DNA of 64,000 nucleotides from Falsihalocynthiibacter arcticus. Lineage in GTDB: Bacteria; Pseudomonadota; Alphaproteobacteria; Rhodobacterales; Rhodobacteraceae. Numbering within the stretch: the first letter of the stretch is position 1; every line of letters begins with the position of its first letter. Below are positions 28,880 through 39,902 of the stretch, in pieces. The DNA lies in contig NZ_CP014327.1 in assembly GCF_000812665.2 (NCBI RefSeq), positions 1,149,001 through 1,213,000 of the forward strand, in the 5' to 3' direction. Below the pieces are notes generated by a model. It was not told the DNA's origin and did no database searches. It saw only the letters and a list, made by a program, of their open reading frames with translations. The translations under genes were made by a program, and so were the position numbers.

Positions 28880-29395
28880 ATGACCGAAGAAACAACCGGT
28901 GCACCAGAAGCGCCAGCGGCGGCGGCACCGACTGCACCCGCGATGCAAGTTTTAGCCCAATTCATCCGCGATCTTTCGTTTGAAAACATCGTGGCGCAGA
29001 AAGGTATTACCAGCGCTTCGCAGCCTGATGTGCAGGTTCAAGTGAACCTAGATGCGAAAAAACGGACTGTGGATAAGCAATTCGAAGTTTCCATGAAGCT
29101 GAAAATCACCAGCAATGTTAAAGAATCTGGCGAGCCAATGTTCCTTATGGAGCTTGATTACGGCGGAATTTTCCACATCGACAATGTGCCTGAAGATCAA
29201 CTGCACCCGTTCTTGTTGATTGAATGCCCACGGATGTTGTTCCCCTATGTGCGCCGCATTGTTGGCGACGTTACACGGGATGGTGGCTTCCCACCGCTGA
29301 ACCTTGAAACGATTGATTTTCTTGCTCTTTACCGTGCCGAGCTTACTCGTCGCGCACAAGCTGAAGCAGCGGCGAGCCCCGCTCCAGTTTCCTAA
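28880..29395 (+). CDS. secB: Protein-export chaperone SecB
   Basis: Homotetrameric cytoplasmic chaperone that keeps preproteins unfolded and hands them to SecA. Family features: MQVLAQFIRDLSFEN near residue 22, then DYGGIFHIDNVPED and IECPRMLFPYVRRI, and GGFPPLNLETIDF. An alanine/proline-rich N-terminal extension and an acidic-to-alanine tail bring it to 171 aa, normal for alphaproteobacteria. It is convergent with dnaQ with 1 nt between them. Confidence 0.96.
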   Translation: MTEETTGAPEAPAAAAPTAPAMQVLAQFIRDLSFENIVAQKGITSASQPDVQVQVNLDAKKRTVDKQFEVSMKLKITSNVKESGEPMFLMELDYGGIFHIDNVPEDQLHPFLLIECPRMLFPYVRRIVGDVTRDGGFPPLNLETIDFLALYRAELTRRAQAEAAASPAPVS

Positions 29396-29396
29396 A

Positions 29397-30086
29397 TCAG
29401 AGCTTTTTCCAAAGCGCGCCGTCGCCTATTTTGTTGATAAATTCAACATGGGCGGCGGCTTCTTCCTCGGTAAGGCGGCTTGGCAAAGCTGTTTCACGCC
29501 GCTTAGGACGCCAAGAATCTCCATTCGACCCGTCATTCTGCGATTGCTCGCTGGTTTTTAGGGCGAAATCTGGCTGACGACCGCCAATAAGCTCCAAATA
29601 CACTTCCGCGAGGATTTCAGAGTCAAGAAGTGCGCCGTGAAGGGTACGCGACGAATTATCGATGCCAAATCGACGGCAAAGTGCATCTAGGGAAGCGGGC
29701 GATCCGGGAAACCGTTTGCGCGCAATCGCCAGAGTATCCAGCGCTTGTGACATCGGTAAGAGAGGGCGGTTAACCCAGCCCAATTCGGCGTTCAAGAACT
29801 TCATATCAAAGGCCGCGTTGTGAATGACCATGCGATCATTGCCGACGAAATCCACGAAATCCTGCGCGATATCAGCAAAAACTGGCTTATCTGAGAGGAA
29901 TTCAATCGAAAGGCCATGAATTTCAAACGCGCCCTGCGGCATGTCGCGTTTTGGGTTAATATACTGGTGATATGTTCGGCCTGTGGGCAATTGGTTCATC
30001 AGTTCGACAATGCCAATTTCAACAAGGCGGTCGCCCTCTTCGGGCTTAAATCCTGTGGTTTCTGTGTCGAGCACGAGTTCACGCAT
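29397..30086 (-). CDS. dnaQ: DNA polymerase III subunit epsilon
   Basis: 3'-5' proofreading exonuclease of the replicative polymerase. DEDDh motifs: LVLDTETTG at the N-terminus, MVIHNAAFDMKFLN, and HGALLDSEILAEVYL with the catalytic His. The last 40 residues hold the flexible linker and alpha-contact tail. 229 aa. It overlaps coaE by 8 nt; the order maf-aroE-coaE-dnaQ is a tightly packed operon starting next to oriC. Confidence 0.96.
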   Translation of the reverse strand: MRELVLDTETTGFKPEEGDRLVEIGIVELMNQLPTGRTYHQYINPKRDMPQGAFEIHGLSIEFLSDKPVFADIAQDFVDFVGNDRMVIHNAAFDMKFLNAELGWVNRPLLPMSQALDTLAIARKRFPGSPASLDALCRRFGIDNSSRTLHGALLDSEILAEVYLELIGGRQPDFALKTSEQSQNDGSNGDSWRPKRRETALPSRLTEEEAAAHVEFINKIGDGALWKKL

Positions 30087-30678: not shown

Positions 30679-31511
30679 GCTTCTAGAACTGCGCGGCGCA
30701 ATTCATCGTCAACTTCGGGGCGCACGCCAAACCACCGCTCAAACGCAGGGGCGGCTTGATGCAGGAGCATTCCCAAGCCATCTACCGTGTGGCATCCCAT
30801 TAAATCGGCATCATCAAGGAATTTGGTGCGCAGCGGGGTATAAACAAGGTCGGTTACGACCGTACCTTTGCGCAACCCGTCGAGAGGAATTCGAAACTCA
30901 GACCCACCCGTCATCCCTAACGACGTCGTGTTTACGACGGTAGCGGCATCTTCGAGCATGTTGCCCGCCTGAACCCAATCAACCACGGTCACCTTTTGCC
31001 CAAACTCACTTCGCAACGCTTCTGATCGGTTTTTGGTGCGATTGGCGAGGAGAATTTCCGGAACGCCAACCTCAAGCAAGCTGGCAATCACCGCGCGCGC
31101 CGCACCACCAGCCCCGATAACGGCTGCGGGGCCGAGTTTTGGTTGCCACGTGGGTGCGCCCTGTTTCAGGTTTTCGATAAAGCCGTACCCGTCGGTGTTA
31201 TCGGCATGCACTTTGCCATCTTTGCGAAAGATGAGTGTGTTGGCCGCCCCGATGAGCGACGCGCGATCGGTAACAAGGTCGGCGAATTCCAGAACGGCTT
31301 CTTTATGGGGGATCGTCACATTAATCCCAACGAACCCAAGCTTGGGCAAGGTTTGGATCGCTTCCCCAAGGTCTGCCCGTTCAATGTGCATCGGGATGTA
31401 CTGCCCTGCGATCCCATATTTTTTCAGCCAATAGCCGTGAAGGGCAGGGGAGCGGCTGTGAGCAATAGGGGCGCCAATGACGCCGGCGAGGGGAATTCTG
31501 GTCTCGCTCAT
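30675..31511 (-). CDS. aroE: Shikimate dehydrogenase
   Basis: NADPH-dependent reduction of 3-dehydroshikimate to shikimate in aromatic amino acid synthesis. Substrate-binding motif GAPIAHSRSPALHGYWL, catalytic Lys in NVTIPHKEAVL, nucleotide-binding GAGGAARAVIASL and NRTKNRSEAL, and the C-terminal GLGMLLHQAAPAFE. 278 aa. Overlaps maf and coaE by 4 nt each. Confidence 0.96.
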   Translation of the reverse strand: MSETRIPLAGVIGAPIAHSRSPALHGYWLKKYGIAGQYIPMHIERADLGEAIQTLPKLGFVGINVTIPHKEAVLEFADLVTDRASLIGAANTLIFRKDGKVHADNTDGYGFIENLKQGAPTWQPKLGPAAVIGAGGAARAVIASLLEVGVPEILLANRTKNRSEALRSEFGQKVTVVDWVQAGNMLEDAATVVNTTSLGMTGGSEFRIPLDGLRKGTVVTDLVYTPLRTKFLDDADLMGCHTVDGLGMLLHQAAPAFERWFGVRPEVDDELRRAVLEA

Positions 31512-32107
31512 GAAGGAAGGTCTCCGCGTAGGGTTAGAAAGGACAGGACTTCGAGTAGGGGCAGGCCGAGAACGGTGAAGTAGTCGCCCTCAATACGGGT
31601 AAACAGGCGCACGCCTTCTTTTTCAAGCTGATATCCGCCGACACAGTGGCGAATTTCTTCCCAGTTCCGCTCTACATAGGACTCTATATAGGTGTCGGAT
31701 AAAGTGCGCATTTGCAGGCGGACAATGCCCACATGCCGCCACAAGGGTTTCCCGTCGAGATAGATGACAGCCGCCGAGAGAAGTTGATGTTTCTGACCTG
31801 ACATGGCTCGCAATTGTGCCACAGCTTCGTCCTTGGTCGTGGGCTTGTTGAATATGGCTCCCTTGAAGTCGAGAACTTGATCGCATCCAAGCGTCAGCGC
31901 ATCTGGATTTTTCTGACTGACCTTGCGGGCCTTATACTCGGCGAGAGCATCGGCAATATCCCTTGGTGCTGCTTTTTCGGCAACAAGAGCGGCTTTTATC
32001 GCCTCTTCGTCCACACGCGGCTTTTGCGCGGTAAATTCAACACAGGCGTTCGTGAGCATCTCAGCACGGATTTGAGAGCCTGAGGCCAAAATGAGTGGAG
32101 AGGGCAT
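31508..32107 (-). CDS. maf: Maf family nucleoside triphosphate pyrophosphatase
   Basis: Nucleotide-pool sanitising enzyme: hydrolyses non-canonical or modified nucleoside triphosphates to monophosphates. Maf signature LILASGSQIRAEML at the N-terminus, AEYKARKVS, LGCDQVLDFKG with the catalytic Asp, and YLEKEG-like GGYQLEKEGVRLF. 199 aa. First gene of the operon that reads leftward away from the probable origin. Confidence 0.92.
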   Translation of the reverse strand: MPSPLILASGSQIRAEMLTNACVEFTAQKPRVDEEAIKAALVAEKAAPRDIADALAEYKARKVSQKNPDALTLGCDQVLDFKGAIFNKPTTKDEAVAQLRAMSGQKHQLLSAAVIYLDGKPLWRHVGIVRLQMRTLSDTYIESYVERNWEEIRHCVGGYQLEKEGVRLFTRIEGDYFTVLGLPLLEVLSFLTLRGDLPS

Positions 32108-32511
32108 GTGGACGATCCTGTGGGCGAATCCCCCGTTTAATCAGGGGTTGAATTGTTGATAACTGGGACTCTTCTCGAAAACAGGCAATCTCACTGAGTT
32201 TGTCAAGGTTCACAAAGCATTTATGCACGGTGGATGAGGATAACTTGTCGCGGTGTACAACTGAAAAATGCAAGAGATGTCTACATTCTATACTCAAGCT
32301 ATCCACATTTTAACTTCTCAAATGCTACTAATTATATGGCGCAATGAGACTTACCCACAGGCATTAACGCTTAAACTATCAATGAATGTAAACTTGTATG
32401 AAACTGGGGAGAAATCAATAATCCACAGAAAGAGCGACCCCTACTTAATCATCATCCTTCTATAAATACTTTATTATTATTATAGGGAGGATATGAAACC
32501 TCGAGGTGCCC
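32108..32511. other. Probable chromosomal replication origin (oriC)
   Basis: A 404-bp non-coding, AT-rich gap between divergent maf and hemJ. It holds six sequences one mismatch from the DnaA box TTATCCACA or TTATNCACA: TTATCAACA (minus, 32154-32162), TTATGCACG (32221-32229), TTATCCTCA (minus, 32235-32243), CTATCCACA (32299-32307), TTACCCACA (32351-32359) and TAATCCACA (32419-32427). An AT-only stretch of repeated TTA (32471-32484) is a candidate unwinding element. Housekeeping genes face away on both sides, and parAB with two parS sites is within 7 kb. No dnaA gene is near. Functional proof is lacking, but no coding ORF is seen here. Confidence 0.78.
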
Positions 32512-32964
32512 ATGTTTGATATTCTCCAGTCGATTTACCCTTGGGTGAAATCCCTGCATGTAATTTCGGTTATCGCTTGGATGGCTGGAATGTTCTATTT
32601 ACCACGATTATATGTTTATCATGTCGAAAGCGTTAAGAAGGGCAGTGAAACAGATGCGCTTTTTCAACTTATGGAGCGACGCCTTCTCAAGGTCATCATA
32701 AACCCAGCAATGATCGCCACGTGGGTGTTTGGAATATTACTCGCGCTTACCCCAGGTGTTGTTGATTGGAGCGCTGTATGGCCCTATGCGAAGTTTGCGA
32801 GTGTCTTGGGCTTGAGTGGCGTACATGGGATGCTGTCAAAGTATCGCCGCGCCTTTGAAGCTGGCGAAAACGTAAAGTCCGGTCGGTATTTTCGGATGCT
32901 GAATGAAGTTCCGACGGTTCTAATGGTTATTATCGTCGTATCAATTATTGCGCGCCCATTCTAA
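32512..32964 (+). CDS. hemJ: Protoporphyrinogen IX oxidase HemJ (CopD/UPF0093 family)
   Basis: Heme-pathway membrane enzyme that oxidises protoporphyrinogen IX, used by many alphaproteobacteria without HemY or HemG. 150 aa with four hydrophobic helices. Conserved His and Arg/Lys residues appear in KSLHVISVIAWMAGMFYLPRL (first helix, split: 'KSLHVISVIAW' and 'MAGMFYLPRLYVYH') and SGVHGMLSKYRRAF, with NEVPTVLMVIIV in the last helix. ATG 32512 has GAGG six bases upstream; a GTG two codons earlier is also in frame. It lies directly beside the probable origin. Confidence 0.92.
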   Translation: MFDILQSIYPWVKSLHVISVIAWMAGMFYLPRLYVYHVESVKKGSETDALFQLMERRLLKVIINPAMIATWVFGILLALTPGVVDWSAVWPYAKFASVLGLSGVHGMLSKYRRAFEAGENVKSGRYFRMLNEVPTVLMVIIVVSIIARPF

Positions 32965-32968
32965 AATA

Positions 32969-32997
32969 TTGACTTAAGCAAAGATGCGTCCTATTTA
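32969..32997 (+). promoter_or_regulatory. Probable sigma-70 promoter of rho
   Basis: TTGACT, exactly 17 nt, TATTTA, about 92 nt before the rho start at 33090. The resulting leader of roughly 85 nt could carry the autoregulatory signals known for rho leaders in other bacteria, but I see no defined structure. Confidence 0.55.
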
Positions 32998-33089
32998 GCG
33001 CCTAGGCGGCCGTCCGGTCGTTTGCTTTCTGTATCCATAACCTAAATGCCCGCGTGCCAAATCTTTGGCCGGACAAGGACGTACCCCCC

Positions 33090-34361
33090 ATGACTGAGAA
33101 CACCCTTAATCTTTCTGAACTTAAGGCGCTTAAGCCCAAAGACCTGTTGTCTATGGCGGAAGAGCTTGAGATCGAAAACGCCTCTACTATGCGCAAGGGC
33201 GAGATTATGTTCCACATTCTGCGCGAACGTGCGGATGATGATTGGGAAGTGTCGGGCGACGGCGTTCTTGAGGTTTTGCAGGACGGATTCGGATTTTTGC
33301 GCAGCCCAGAGGCAAACTATTTGCCCGGCCCTGATGATATTTACCTTTCACCCGAGATGATCCGCTCGTTTTCCATGCGCACCGGCGACACGGTAAATGG
33401 TGTTGTGAAGGCTCCCGGCGACACAGAGCGTTATTTTGCGATGACAAAAGTGACGTCAATCAATTTCCAAGAGCCTGAACGCAATCGTCACAAAATCAAC
33501 TTTGATAACCTGACGCCGCTCTATCCTGATGAGCGGTTGATCATGGAAACCGACGATCCAACCACAAAAGACCGCTCTGCGCGGATCATTGATTTGGTTG
33601 CGCCGATTGGTAAAGGTCAACGTTCGTTGATTGTTGCGCCGCCACGGACCGGTAAAACGGTTTTGTTGCAGAATATTGCGTCTAGCATCGAGAAAAACCA
33701 TCCTGAGTGTTATTTGATCGTTTTGCTGATCGATGAGCGCCCAGAAGAGGTGACTGATATGCAGCGTAGCGTGAAAGGCGAGGTTGTTTCCTCAACTTTT
33801 GATGAGCCTGCAACCCGCCACGTCGCCGTTTCCGAAATGGTTATCGAAAAAGCCAAACGCCTTGTAGAGCATAAACGCGATGTTGTGATCCTGCTGGATT
33901 CCATCACCCGCCTTGGTCGCGCCTTTAACACGGTTGTGCCGTCCTCTGGTAAAGTTCTGACCGGTGGTGTCGACGCGAACGCCTTGCAGCGCCCTAAGCG
34001 CTTCTTTGGGGCCGCACGTAACATCGAGGAGGGTGGAAGCCTGACCATTATCGCGACTGCTTTGATCGACACGGGTTCGCGTATGGACGAAGTCATCTTT
34101 GAAGAATTCAAAGGCACGGGTAACAGCGAGATCGTTCTCGATCGCAAAGTGGCCGATAAACGCGTCTTCCCAGCAATGGATATTCTGAAGTCCGGTACTC
34201 GCAAAGAGGAACTTCTGGTGAATAAAATCGATCTCCAGAAAACCTTTGTTCTGCGTCGTATTCTGAATCCAATGGGCACAACCGATGCCATTGAATTCCT
34301 GATTTCCAAGTTGAAACAGACCAAAACAAACTCCGATTTCTTTGATTCGATGAATACCTGA
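33090..34361 (+). CDS. rho: Transcription termination factor Rho
   Basis: Hexameric RNA-DNA helicase that ends transcription. Features: N-terminal helical domain ([20 protein letters not shown]), RNA-binding cold-shock fold with [21 protein letters not shown], Walker A APPRTGKT, Walker [17 protein letters not shown], the secondary RNA-binding loops and C-terminal arginine motif. 423 aa from ATG 33090, the size usual in Rhodobacterales. The open frame extends upstream to a GTG at 33054, but the AAGGAC ribosome site and homology favour 33090. Confidence 0.96.
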
Positions 34362-35697: not shown

Positions 35698-37572
35698 GTG
35701 TTTCACGTGAAACATTCGGATTTTGATGTAATTGTTGTTGGTGGTGGACATGCGGGCACAGACGCTGCGCATGCATCAGCACGTATGGGCGCCCGAACTG
35801 CGCTGGTAACGCTTAATTTGAGCGGGATCGGCGTTATGTCATGTAACCCAGCGATCGGTGGTTTGGGAAAGGGGCATTTGGTTCGCGAAATCGATGCTCT
35901 CGACGGACTCATGGGGCGCGTTGCCGATAAGGCAGGGATCCAGTTTCGATTGCTCAATCGCGGTAAGGGCCCTGCTGTACAAGGCCCGCGCGCGCAAGCA
36001 GACAGAAAAATTTATCGCAACGAGATGCTTAAAAAAATTCAGGCAACCCCGAATTTGACGGTGGTCATCGGAGAGGCAATTGATTTTGTAATGGATGGCC
36101 ATAAAGTGGCTGGCATTGTGCTTCAGGATGGATCCGAACTCTCATCAAAGTCGGTCATTTTGACTACGGGTACTTTCCTCCGCGGGGTCATTCATATTGG
36201 CGACGTGCGTCGGCCAGGTGGACGTATGGGAGATAAACCCAGTGTTCAACTAGCAGAGCGAATTGACTCATTTGGGTTGCCGTTGGGACGCTTGAAAACA
36301 GGCACGCCCCCTCGGTTAGACGGGCGAACTATCAATTGGGATATTCTTGAAAAACAGCCGGGTGACGATGCGCCGGTTATGTTTTCGTTTCTCTCCAAAA
36401 GTGTGTCCGCGAAACAAATATCTTGCGGCATTACCCATACCAACGAAAAAACGCATGATATCATTCGCGAAAACCTGGGTCGTTCCGCGATGTATGGCGG
36501 CCATATTGATGGCGTAGGTCCACGATATTGCCCGTCAATCGAAGATAAAGTCGTTCGCTTTGCCGACAAAAAATCGCATCAGATTTTCTTGGAACCCGAA
36601 GGTGTTGACGATTTCACTGTGTATCCGAATGGAATCTCGACTTCATTACCCGAAGATGTGCAAGAGGCGTATGTTCGATCGATTGTTGGACTTGAAAAGG
36701 TTGCAATCCTTCAGCCTGGGTATGCGATTGAATATGATTACGTCGACCCATTGGCGTTAAAACATACATTGGAACTTAAGGATGTACCGGGACTTTTCCT
36801 TGCGGGGCAGATAAATGGTACTACTGGGTATGAAGAAGCAGCCGCACAGGGTCTTGTTGCGGGTTTGAATGCAGCAAGGCGAGCCTTTGACAACGAGGAA
36901 GTAATTTTCAGTAGGGCGGAGTCCTACATAGGCGTCATGATTGATGATCTTGTGACGCTTGGTGTTTCTGAGCCCTATCGAATGTTTACTTCGCGGGCGG
37001 AATTCAGGTTGTCTTTACGCGCTGACAACGCCGATCAGAGACTCACTCCTGTCGGTATTGAACTCGGATGTGTCGGAAATGCTCGTCGAAGTGTTTTTGA
37101 AGGTAAAATTGAACGTTTGAAAGCGGCAACTATCCGGTTGGAAAAAATGTCAGTTACATCGAGGGCGATCGCCGAACTTGGAGTTAATATTAATAAGGAC
37201 GGTGTCCGTAGGTCGGGATCAGAGATGCTTTCGATTGCGGGTGTCAATTTCGAGCATTTGGTTTCCCTCCAACCGGATCTGATCGATATTGACGATGAAA
37301 TACAGATTCAAGTTGCCCGCGACGCGTTGTATTCGGTATATATTTCTCGGCAACAAAAGGATGTCGAGGCTGTAAAGCGGGATGAAAACCTTAGAATTCC
37401 AGAAAATATAGACTTCGCGTCATTAGCAGGTTTGTCCAATGAAATTAGGGCTAAACTAATTGAAATTCGACCTCAATCGATTGGCCACGCGAGTAGAATT
37501 CGAGGGATGACCCCCGCAGCATTGACGTTGGTCTTGGCGCGTGCAAGGCAGTTAGATCGGAAAAAGGCCTGA
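35698..37572 (+). CDS. mnmG: tRNA uridine-5-carboxymethylaminomethyl modification enzyme MnmG (GidA)
   Basis: FAD-binding partner of MnmE. FAD motif [22 protein letters not shown] at the N-terminus (given in parts: [11 protein letters not shown]), family signatures [16 protein letters not shown] and [20 protein letters not shown] (split here), and the helical C-terminal domain. 624 aa. The first codons (GTG at 35698, giving MFHVKH) lie on a perfect parS site. A second GTG at 35707, inside parS, has the GGGAG ribosome site at better spacing (8 nt), so the true start may be there. It overlaps rsmG by 1 nt. Confidence 0.96.
35699..35714. other. parS centromere site 1
   Basis: TGTTTCACGTGAAACA, a perfect 16-bp palindrome identical to the canonical bacterial parS sequence bound by ParB. 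It overlaps the start codon region of mnmG and encodes its first residues. parA and parB lie 2.5-4.2 kb downstream. Confidence 0.95.
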
Positions 37573-38197
37573 TGGATCAAGATGGCCGGAAAAACTTTTC
37601 ACAGCATTTCGATGTTTCACGTGAAACAATGGACCGATTGGATGATTTCGTAGCACTTGTTGAAAAGTGGAACCCGAAAATAAATCTGATTTCAAAAAAA
37701 TCAGTGGATGAAATTTGGAGTCGGCACGTTCTAGATAGTGCGCAAGTGTTGGAATTTGGCAATAAATCCGGAAAATGGGTGGATATCGGTAGCGGTGGGG
37801 ATTCCCCGGTATTGTTGCCGCCATTCTCGCATGTGACGTGCTGCCGGAATTGAAATTCGTTTTGGTGGAAAGCGATCAGAGAAAAGCAGCCTTCCTAAGG
37901 GCCGCAGCGCGAACGGCTGATATTAGCCTCGAAATTATTGCCCAGAGGGTGGAAAATATTCCTTCTCTTGAAGCACAGACACTTTCAGCTCGCGCATTAG
38001 CTCCATTGGATAAACTTTTGGAATTTGCTAATCTGCATCTGGCCCCGAATGGGATCGCGCTTTTTCCCAAAGGGGCTTCCTACAAGTCAGAAGTTGAAGA
38101 TGCCCGTAAAAGATGGAATTTTGAACTGGAAGATATTTCAAGTAAGACAGATAGTGACGCAATGATATTAAGAGTTGGAGCCATCACGAATGTCTAA
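37572..38197 (+). pseudogene. rsmG: 16S rRNA (guanine-527-N7)-methyltransferase RsmG (GidB), frameshifted
   Basis: SAM-dependent methyltransferase that makes m7G527 in 16S rRNA; loss gives low-level streptomycin resistance in several bacteria. The N-terminal half reads NLISKKSVDEIWSRHVLDSAQ, then KWVDIGSGG, and stops in a wrong frame at 37853. The next frame continues IVAAILACDVLPELKFVLVE and SDQRKAAFLRAAAR to 38197. A run of four G at 37797-37800 should be five to give the SAM-binding GSGGGFPG. All other parts are intact, so a homopolymer undercall is more likely than real loss. It carries parS site 2 and overlaps parA by 8 nt. Confidence 0.92.
37613..37628. other. parS centromere site 2
   Basis: Second perfect TGTTTCACGTGAAACA, inside the rsmG reading frame about 40 nt from its start, 1.9 kb from site 1. 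Here it is read in a different frame and encodes part of FDVSRET. Confidence 0.95.
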
Positions 38198-39005
38198 CGC
38201 TTTGAGTCACAGTCAGCCCAAAATAATTGCGATAGCAAATCAAAAGGGCGGCGTTGGAAAAACCACAACATCCATTAATTTGGGAGCAGCACTGGCTAAA
38301 ACTGGCTACAGGGTGCTTCTAGTTGATTTGGACCCTCAGGGAAATGCTTCGACAGGTCTAGGAATTGGAAGCGAAAAGCGAATTTCTACGACCTATGATC
38401 TCTTAGTACATGATGCGTCCCTTTCAGAAGTTATTCAGGCTACGGCCGTCGAAGATATGGATATAATCCCTGCCACTACAGACCTGAGTTCTGCGGATAT
38501 CGAGCTTTTAGCTAATGAGAAGCGCAGTTTTTTGCTTCACGATGCGTTGCGGCAGCCGGCAATTTCCTCATACGACTACGATTATGTTCTTATTGATTGC
38601 CCACCGTCCCTGAATATACTAACCGTGAATGCAATGGTCGCCGCGCACTCGGTGCTCGTTCCCCTACAAAGCGAATTTTTTGCGTTGGAAGGGTTGTCTC
38701 AATTAATGATGACCGTACGCGAAGTTCGGGAAACCGCAAATTCCGGTCTTCGCATTGAGGGTATTGTACTGACAATGTACGATAAAAGAAATAATCTATC
38801 GCAAATGGTGGAAGCAGATGCGCGGGAAAACTTGGGCGATCTTGTGTTCAAAACGGTCATTCCACGAAATGTTCGGGTCAGCGAGGCACCATCTTACGCG
38901 ATGCCAGTTGTAGATTACGATCCGAACTCCAAGGGGAGCTTGGCATATTTTGAAGTCGCGCGAGAGCTTGTTTCAAGGCATAACAGTTTAAAAACAAAGG
39001 TTTAA
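38190..39005 (+). CDS. parA: Chromosome partitioning ATPase ParA
   Basis: Deviant Walker-A ATPase that moves the ParB-parS complex and so the new origin across the cell. Motif KGGVGKTTTSINLGAAL near residue 22, ProteinA' VLLVDLDPQGNAS, and Walker B YDYVLIDCPPSLN. 271 aa from ATG 38190, which overlaps the rsmG stop; an in-frame TTG at 38175 is less likely. It forms an operon with parB, 3 nt after its stop. Confidence 0.97.
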   Translation: MSNALSHSQPKIIAIANQKGGVGKTTTSINLGAALAKTGYRVLLVDLDPQGNASTGLGIGSEKRISTTYDLLVHDASLSEVIQATAVEDMDIIPATTDLSSADIELLANEKRSFLLHDALRQPAISSYDYDYVLIDCPPSLNILTVNAMVAAHSVLVPLQSEFFALEGLSQLMMTVREVRETANSGLRIEGIVLTMYDKRNNLSQMVEADARENLGDLVFKTVIPRNVRVSEAPSYAMPVVDYDPNSKGSLAYFEVARELVSRHNSLKTKV

Positions 39006-39008
39006 CAC

Positions 39009-39902
39009 ATGGTGCAAAAGAAAAATGAACGGCGCGGTCTTGGGCGTGGACTTTCTGCACTCATGGCGGATGTAAACATTCCTGCGCCGCAAGATGAGAA
39101 AGAAGCACCAGTTAGGGCCGAGCAAACGATCCCAATTGAGCTTATTGAACCAAATCCAGATCAGCCACGTCGGTATTTTGACGAGGAGGCGCTTCAGGAC
39201 CTGGCTAGATCGATCACGGAAAAGGGTGTAATTCAGCCACTTATCGTTCGCCCGAACCCAAGAAAACAGGGTTTGTATGAGATTGTCGCTGGTGAACGTC
39301 GCTGGAGAGCCTCTCAGATCGCGCAGCTGCATAAAGTCCCAGCAATTATACGCGAGCTCGACGACACAGAGGTGTTGGAAGTTGCTATAATCGAGAATAT
39401 TCAACGTGCTGACTTGAATCCGGTCGAGGAAGCCATTGGGTATCGGCAATTGATGGACAGATTTGGGCATACACAGGAAAAAGTGGCGTCAGCCCTTTCG
39501 AAAAGTAGAAGCTATATCGCAAATCTCCTTCGGTTGCTTCAACTTCCAGAGGATGTTTTGGCCCTACTTCGTGACGGCTCGTTGACCACAGGTCATGCGC
39601 GCGCTTTGATTACGGCCCCGAATGCTTCTGAATTGGCTAAAAAAATTGTAGCTGAAGGGCTATCCGTTCGCCAAACTGAAAAGCTCGTAAAAATTGGGGA
39701 CAATAGTACTAAGAATCAAAAGTCCCCAAAGGCTTCGAAGGATGCTGACACTGTGGCAATCGAAGGGGATCTTTCGGCGGCGTTGGGGATGGATACAGTG
39801 ATTGACCATTTGGCAGGAAAAGAGAGCGGTAAAGTCTCAATCAAGTATAAGTCTCTAGAACAATTAGACGAAATTTGCCGTATATTGTCATCTACGCGCT
39901 AG
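39009..39902 (+). CDS. parB: Chromosome partitioning protein ParB
   Basis: CTP-dependent DNA clamp that loads at parS. An N-terminal ParA-interacting segment (RRGLGRGLSALMADV) is followed by the CTPase/ParB domain with PNPDQPRRYFDEEAL, GERRWRASQIA and EVAIIENIQRADLNPVEEA (split), a helix-turn-helix with SKSRSYIANLLRLLQLP, and a C-terminal dimer domain. 297 aa. Its last 11 nt overlap the 3' end of the convergent DUF454 gene. Confidence 0.97.
   Translation: MVQKKNERRGLGRGLSALMADVNIPAPQDEKEAPVRAEQTIPIELIEPNPDQPRRYFDEEALQDLARSITEKGVIQPLIVRPNPRKQGLYEIVAGERRWRASQIAQLHKVPAIIRELDDTEVLEVAIIENIQRADLNPVEEAIGYRQLMDRFGHTQEKVASALSKSRSYIANLLRLLQLPEDVLALLRDGSLTTGHARALITAPNASELAKKIVAEGLSVRQTEKLVKIGDNSTKNQKSPKASKDADTVAIEGDLSAALGMDTVIDHLAGKESGKVSIKYKSLEQLDEICRILSSTR

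Follow-up and report, generated by a model that had tools for sequence, protein, structure and literature searches.

Where on its chromosome does Falsihalocynthiibacter arcticus start replication? We examined this question in a 64,000-nucleotide stretch (the window; bases 1,149,001-1,213,000 of a 4,329,554-base contig), in which the original prediction had placed a probable oriC between maf and hemJ. The gap between these genes is bounded by the maf start (32107, minus strand) and the hemJ ATG (32512), is 404 bp in size, and occupies chromosomal positions 1,181,108-1,181,511. The closest named relative of the HemJ protein is that of Halocynthiibacter sp. SDUM655004 (83% identity; family Rhodobacteraceae). 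The locus is arranged as follows:

31508-32107, minus strand: maf
32108-32511, no strand: gap between the divergent genes maf and hemJ, very probable oriC (coordinates exact)
32512-32964, plus strand: hemJ
33054-34361, plus strand: rho
38175-39005, plus strand: parA, a ParA-like ATPase (family matches; named from its position before parB)
39009-39902, plus strand: parB

Beyond maf, the genes to the left of the gap are aroE, coaE, and dnaQ; to the right are hemJ, rho, mnmE, mnmG, parA, and parB. Adjoining parA is rsmG (gidB; 37572-38197), which is broken into a pair of ORFs that overlap in different frames and both give partial matches to the GidB family; either the gene is frameshifted or the sequence contains an error. 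A switch in gene direction had been part of the prediction. Although maf and hemJ do diverge, the switch is local, as ORFs picked by length number 25 on the plus and 19 on the minus strand to the left of the gap (window plus 15 kb to its left) and 21 plus and 8 minus to the right (window).

For the chromosome-wide GC-skew check proposed with the prediction, we took 80 samples of 15 kb, one per 54 kb, representing 28% of the 4.33-Mb chromosome. Skew was negative in 22/22 samples up to position 1,141,501, positive in 35/41 samples after this position and up to 3,355,501, and negative in 16/17 samples after 3,355,501. A two-break fit, which reduced the squared error from 0.269 to 0.100, put the origin switch between the samples centered at 1,141,501 and 1,195,501, a 54-kb interval that contains the gap, and the other switch across the circle, between 3,355,501 and 3,409,501 (the antipode of the gap is at 3.346 Mb). 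The sole dif-like site within three mismatches of the dif consensus is at 3,396,901-3,396,925; it carries one mismatch and lies 2.22 Mb from the gap in one direction and 2.11 Mb in the other. At 54-kb resolution, the prediction thus withstood this check, the chromosomal skew switch falling in the interval that contains the predicted origin.

Closer to the gap, the G excess is higher on the right than on the left, as had been judged by eye. A fit of third-codon-position skew that allowed for gene strand, covering the window and 15 kb to its left, placed the break best at 24.5-29 kb of the window, 3-8 kb left of the gap, with a bootstrap range (-4 to 28 kb) that leaves the gap outside. Because the local break is 3-8 kb to the left, skew places the origin in this neighborhood without singling out the gap, which is instead chosen on account of its boxes, AT-rich core, and conservation.

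The nearby parABS system that had been noted is also present. In addition to the ParA-like gene and parB at 38175-39902, the window contains the only two exact parS sites in the genome, 3.2 and 5.1 kb from the gap:

35699-35714, no strand: parS TGTTTCACGTGAAACA, exact
37613-37628, no strand: parS TGTTTCACGTGAAACA, exact

Origins adjacent to dnaA are common in bacteria, and the origin might instead be at dnaA, near which one imperfect parS occurs (1,399,144), or at another place with DnaA boxes. However, dnaA (1,397,393) is 216 kb from the gap, within the G-rich arm and not at the switch, and the 30 perfect DnaA boxes of the genome are scattered, with chromosomal pairs never closer than about 11 kb. 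We consider this alternative extremely improbable. The parS-like site near dnaA (G000:C1:1399144-1399159) has one mismatch; the end of the dnaA match is about 1.3 kb away and the nearer exact parS about 213 kb. Our search for dnaA on this contig also returned 14 places that match the DnaA family nearly equally well, with open frames of 269-286 aa. These look like IstB-type transposon ATPases and are presumably many copies of one kind of insertion sequence.

We scored DnaA boxes as 9-mers against TTATCCACA. The maf-hemJ gap, the reading we favor for oriC, contains five 9-mers that differ from this sequence by one mismatch, as well as a more degenerate box:

32118-32127, minus strand: degenerate box beside the maf start, in alignment columns with the majority sequence CTGTGGATAA across 85 gaps
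32154-32162, minus strand: DnaA box TTATCAACA, one mismatch
32235-32243, minus strand: DnaA box TTATCCTCA, one mismatch
32299-32307, plus strand: DnaA box CTATCCACA, one mismatch
32351-32359, plus strand: DnaA box TTACCCACA, one mismatch
32419-32427, plus strand: DnaA box TAATCCACA, the conserved-core box, one mismatch

Several such boxes had been predicted, and their clustering exceeds chance. With five boxes, the gap outranks every other 400-bp stretch of the window (the next cluster has three), while 79 other 15-kb samples of the chromosome reached a maximum of three per 400 bp. Given the background in these other samples (234 one-mismatch boxes in 1.178 Mb, or 0.08 per 400 bp), the Poisson P for at least five boxes in 404 bp is ~3e-8 per place and ~3e-4 chromosome-wide. 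When the 9-mer was permuted, 1/2000 permutations attained five matches in the gap.

A second group of boxes, at 29068-29440 (secB/dnaQ), could be the real origin, as it has the sole perfect box in the window plus two one-mismatch boxes and is near the local skew change point. All three boxes are in coding sequence, however, two in secB and one in dnaQ, and in 70 loci of relatives we counted 12 boxes 2.8-3.6 kb before hemJ compared to 141 in the last 400 bp. There is scarcely any chance that this group, rather than the gap, is the origin.

To compare the gap with those of relatives, we collected 110 loci, this one included. Exclusion of 22 loci in which maf was out of reach or further off and of three identical copies left 85 distinct maf-hemJ gaps of 351-474 bp. 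These contain 202 boxes with at most one mismatch, compared to 7.7 in shuffled sequences, and the commonest forms are TAATCCACA (31), TTATCCACA (25), and TTTTCCACA (23). The prediction that no box in our gap is perfect was correct, but the view that this is unusual was not, since 64 of the 85 gaps likewise lack a perfect box (17 have one and four have two). As such absence is usual in the family, and as the C-terminal DNA-binding domain of the DnaA of this genome is normal-looking (we take it to resemble that of E. coli), the data favor weak boxes over the group-specific consensus that had been suggested.

In 60 of 70 loci, each 12 kb long, no other stretch was denser in boxes than the 400 bp preceding hemJ. 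A box-like sequence, TGATCCACA, recurs within dnaQ, about 2.4-2.8 kb upstream of hemJ (loci L119-L198; 50 one-mismatch boxes in the 70 loci). We rejected this peak as a signal: 12/50 inspected share one dnaQ context, and we take the peak to be a coding artifact because the one box that was translated reads VIHNAAFD. Apparently, TGATCCACA spells the IHN of the exonuclease motif, making it a trap for box counting.

The AT-rich TTA repeat mentioned in the prediction falls within the most AT-rich part of the gap:

32442-32501, no strand: most AT-rich 60 bp of the gap (75% AT), candidate duplex-unwinding element; contains TTATTATTATTAT at 32471-32483

Since 75% AT is attained by 0.07% of the 60-mers in the window, base composition indicates a candidate unwinding element beside the boxes. 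The gap lacks an exact CtrA site (TTAA-N7-TTAA), containing one with a single mismatch, and Caulobacter-style CtrA control of the gap is therefore without sequence support; exact sites are present in 8/85 maf-hemJ gaps. No exact IHF site was found in the gap, and GANTC (CcrM) occurs at two places (mean of 1.26 per gap across the 85 gaps). An Rfam scan of 31400-33400 gave a single match, far under the family threshold, and the gap had no match in a plasmid collection.

The best-conserved stretch in the alignment of the 85 gaps is on the hemJ side and consists of TAATCCnCA, CCCTACAnCATCATCATC, and then a T-rich run. A sequence-only profile, R1, was made from 50 sequences, including that of the window. 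The core, which is ~90 bp, is made up of TAATCCACA, CCCTAC, an ATC array, and a T-rich run. Some relatives have a second box in tandem with the first; the window has a single one:

32395-32484, plus strand: conserved origin core, match to R1 (57.3 bits, E 3.8e-15; the window sequence is among the 50 profile members)
32439-32462, plus strand: CCCTAC followed by a period-3 array (TTA ATC ATC ATC CTT CTA, 32445-32462), candidate DnaA-trio-like unwinding track

T-centered triplet runs of at least four occur in 84% of the 85 cores compared to 37% in shuffled sequences. As C-centered runs are nearly as long as T-centered ones (means of 4.1 and 4.5, respectively), this result shows period 3, not T alone.

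We determined how the core is distributed. In its own genome, the 57.3-bit site is the one strong match, with a runner-up at 12.7 bits. At E ≤0.01, R1 found one site each in 30/37 family genomes, own included; the match in G033 was weak (E 0.0036). Among 120 family genomes that are ≥95% complete, R1 had exactly one match in 101 and none in 19 at a cut-off of E ≤0.001, which makes it a practical origin finder for the family. In 97/101 genomes, rho lies <2 kb downstream of the core in the same orientation; in the remaining four, core and rho are on separate contigs (three genomes) or rho had no match (one genome). The 101 include 76 genomes from outside the 37-genome set, some of which may be conspecific with named profile loci, and 72 of these 76 are among the 97. 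The order maf-core-rho was confirmed by homology in five genomes (G003, G010, G012, G020, and G025). We also tried the exact signature CCCTACNNNATCATCAT as an origin finder, but it was too strict (8/61 genomes), and three of its eight matches (in G025, G029, and G035) had none of the flanking genes of the origin around them.

These data bear on whether the gap is only a double promoter or 5′ region of maf and hemJ, with the origin elsewhere nearby. The two genes diverge, DnaA regulates transcription and might control them, and there is a promoter-like match at 32313-32285. However, this match is the only one in or around the gap, which is not above chance (mean of 1.3 in shuffled sequences), and the 79 other samples contain no comparable box cluster. 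Moreover, a double promoter predicts that the core is lost alongside hemJ, and the reverse was seen. The spacing between core and rho is only 111-200 bp in 21 of the 97 genomes, too little for hemJ, indicating that the core persists where hemJ has been lost from this position; the five genomes with a homology-confirmed maf-core-rho order belong to these 21. Because the core is just upstream of rho in 97/101 genomes, 21 of them without room for hemJ, we conclude that it is an origin element and not the hemJ promoter. A gap serving only as a promoter region is thus very unlikely.

Further support for the core as part of oriC came from parS, which was 2.8-5.9 kb from the core in 4/4 family genomes checked (two copies each in G004, G010, and G035; one in G034). 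Skew in three of these genomes was variable and in part speaks against this placement. For G035, the core falls within the best-fitting switch interval, with skew that is weak and a second switch that is not opposite. Skew is ambiguous in G004, with the best-fitting switch off the core and the third-best fit at the core. In G010, skew is clear and the core is ~106-176 kb from the switch, with parS 2.8 and 4.7 kb from the core; the offset perhaps reflects a rearrangement or island near the origin. The G010 switch lies in a 70-kb low-skew stretch (G010:C3:2736001-2806000).

Outside the family, weak R1 matches (E ≤0.01) were present in 10/24 genomes. In four of these (G037, G044, G045, and G056), hemJ follows the match in the same orientation at a distance of 2.0-2.3 kb, and in G056 the match adjoins maf. 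By analogy, this position would fit the hemE-flanked origin reported for alphaproteobacteria (PMC1914354). The other 6/10 matches give this reading no support, because hemJ is on a different contig (G042, G049, G054, G055, and G058) or the genome has no HemJ match (G059); for G049, the flanking genes were not found around the better of two matches. Outside the family, parS is 13-15 kb from the weak core match in G045, is present without a core match in G048, and was not found in G050.

The gap lies in the skew-switch interval with a dif-like site opposite, contains a box cluster and an AT-rich core, is close to parS, and carries a core with exactly one match in most of the family genomes tested (101/120). 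As judged from these sequence features, positions 32108-32511 are very probably the chromosomal oriC, as originally predicted, which settles where the chromosome very probably starts replicating.

In a model that accommodates these features, and in which DnaA binding, strand opening, and fork start at the gap are inferred, ATP-DnaA would bind several of the weak boxes spread over the gap as well as the conserved TAATCCACA beside the AT-rich side. From TAATCCACA, a DnaA filament would extend over the CCCTAC/(ATC)n/T-rich track and open it. Helicase would be loaded and two forks would depart, one passing maf-aroE-coaE-dnaQ and the other hemJ-rho-mnmE-mnmG-parAB. ParB at the two parS sites would then segregate the new origins. 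It is possible, though on balance doubtful, that the origins of Rhodobacteraceae have in common an opening module of ~90 bp, TAATCCACA-CCCTAC-(ATC)n-T-rich, that is present in single copy, is kept without adjacent hemJ, and allows DnaA, nucleating at one weak box, to open a variant trio track. We propose a variant because the lower-strand triplets are 3′-TAG-5′ instead of 3′-GAT-5′. If DnaA does open the ATC track, the known range of unwinding sequences would be extended.

How does this origin compare with known systems? According to a report on Ketogulonicigenium vulgare Hbe602, oriC is predicted in DoriC to have a conserved position next to maf within Rhodobacteraceae (PMC4793288). The gap, which directly adjoins maf in the same family, has parAB near, and keeps its synteny in relatives, is thus a further case of this known position. 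A survey by skew and box counting assigned 101 Rhodobacteraceae origins and left eight strains without one; its criteria were the skew minimum, boxes, and proximity of parAB (PMC6699656), and like features are found here. We also compared the gap sequence across 85 genomes and found the core, while the accessible portions of these two papers describe no such core (PMC4793288, PMC6699656). A search of a limited collection of articles found neither the core profile in print nor a paper joining an ATC motif with "DnaA box" and "oriC". What is new is therefore only the core profile and its possible unwinding role, the maf-adjacent oriC having been published.

The Bacillus subtilis BUS resembles the core in having a box, then a period-3 track whose lower-strand triplets have A in the middle, and AT-rich DNA beyond it (PMC8287927). 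Unlike the BUS, the repeated triplet here is 3′-TAG-5′, not 3′-GAT-5′, and the spacer after the core box in the window is 17, one above the published limit of 16. The BUS rule (a box with at most two mismatches, a spacer of 0-16, and at least three NAN triplets; PMC8287927) identified 57/85 gaps in the core orientation (10.3 in shuffled gaps), yet also 39/85 in the opposite orientation, and the best instance was within 130 bp of hemJ in 36 gaps. In the window, box 32299 conforms to the rule and the core box at 32419 misses it by 1 nt.

Compared with Caulobacter crescentus Cori and the hemE-flanked alphaproteobacterial origins, the gap differs in that its neighbor is hemJ, not hemE, leaving it without a hemE boundary, and in that Cori has five CtrA sites while the gap has no exact one (PMC1914354, PMC4468827). 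It is like these origins in being ~400 bp in size, in having weak DnaA boxes and an AT-rich part, in its distance of no more than 8 kb from parS, and in being flanked on one side by a heme-synthesis gene (PMC1914354, PMC4468827). By analogy, the weak boxes of the gap, together with one conserved box beside the putative opening region, are reminiscent of the G- and W-boxes of Caulobacter, which are of low affinity (PMC4468827).
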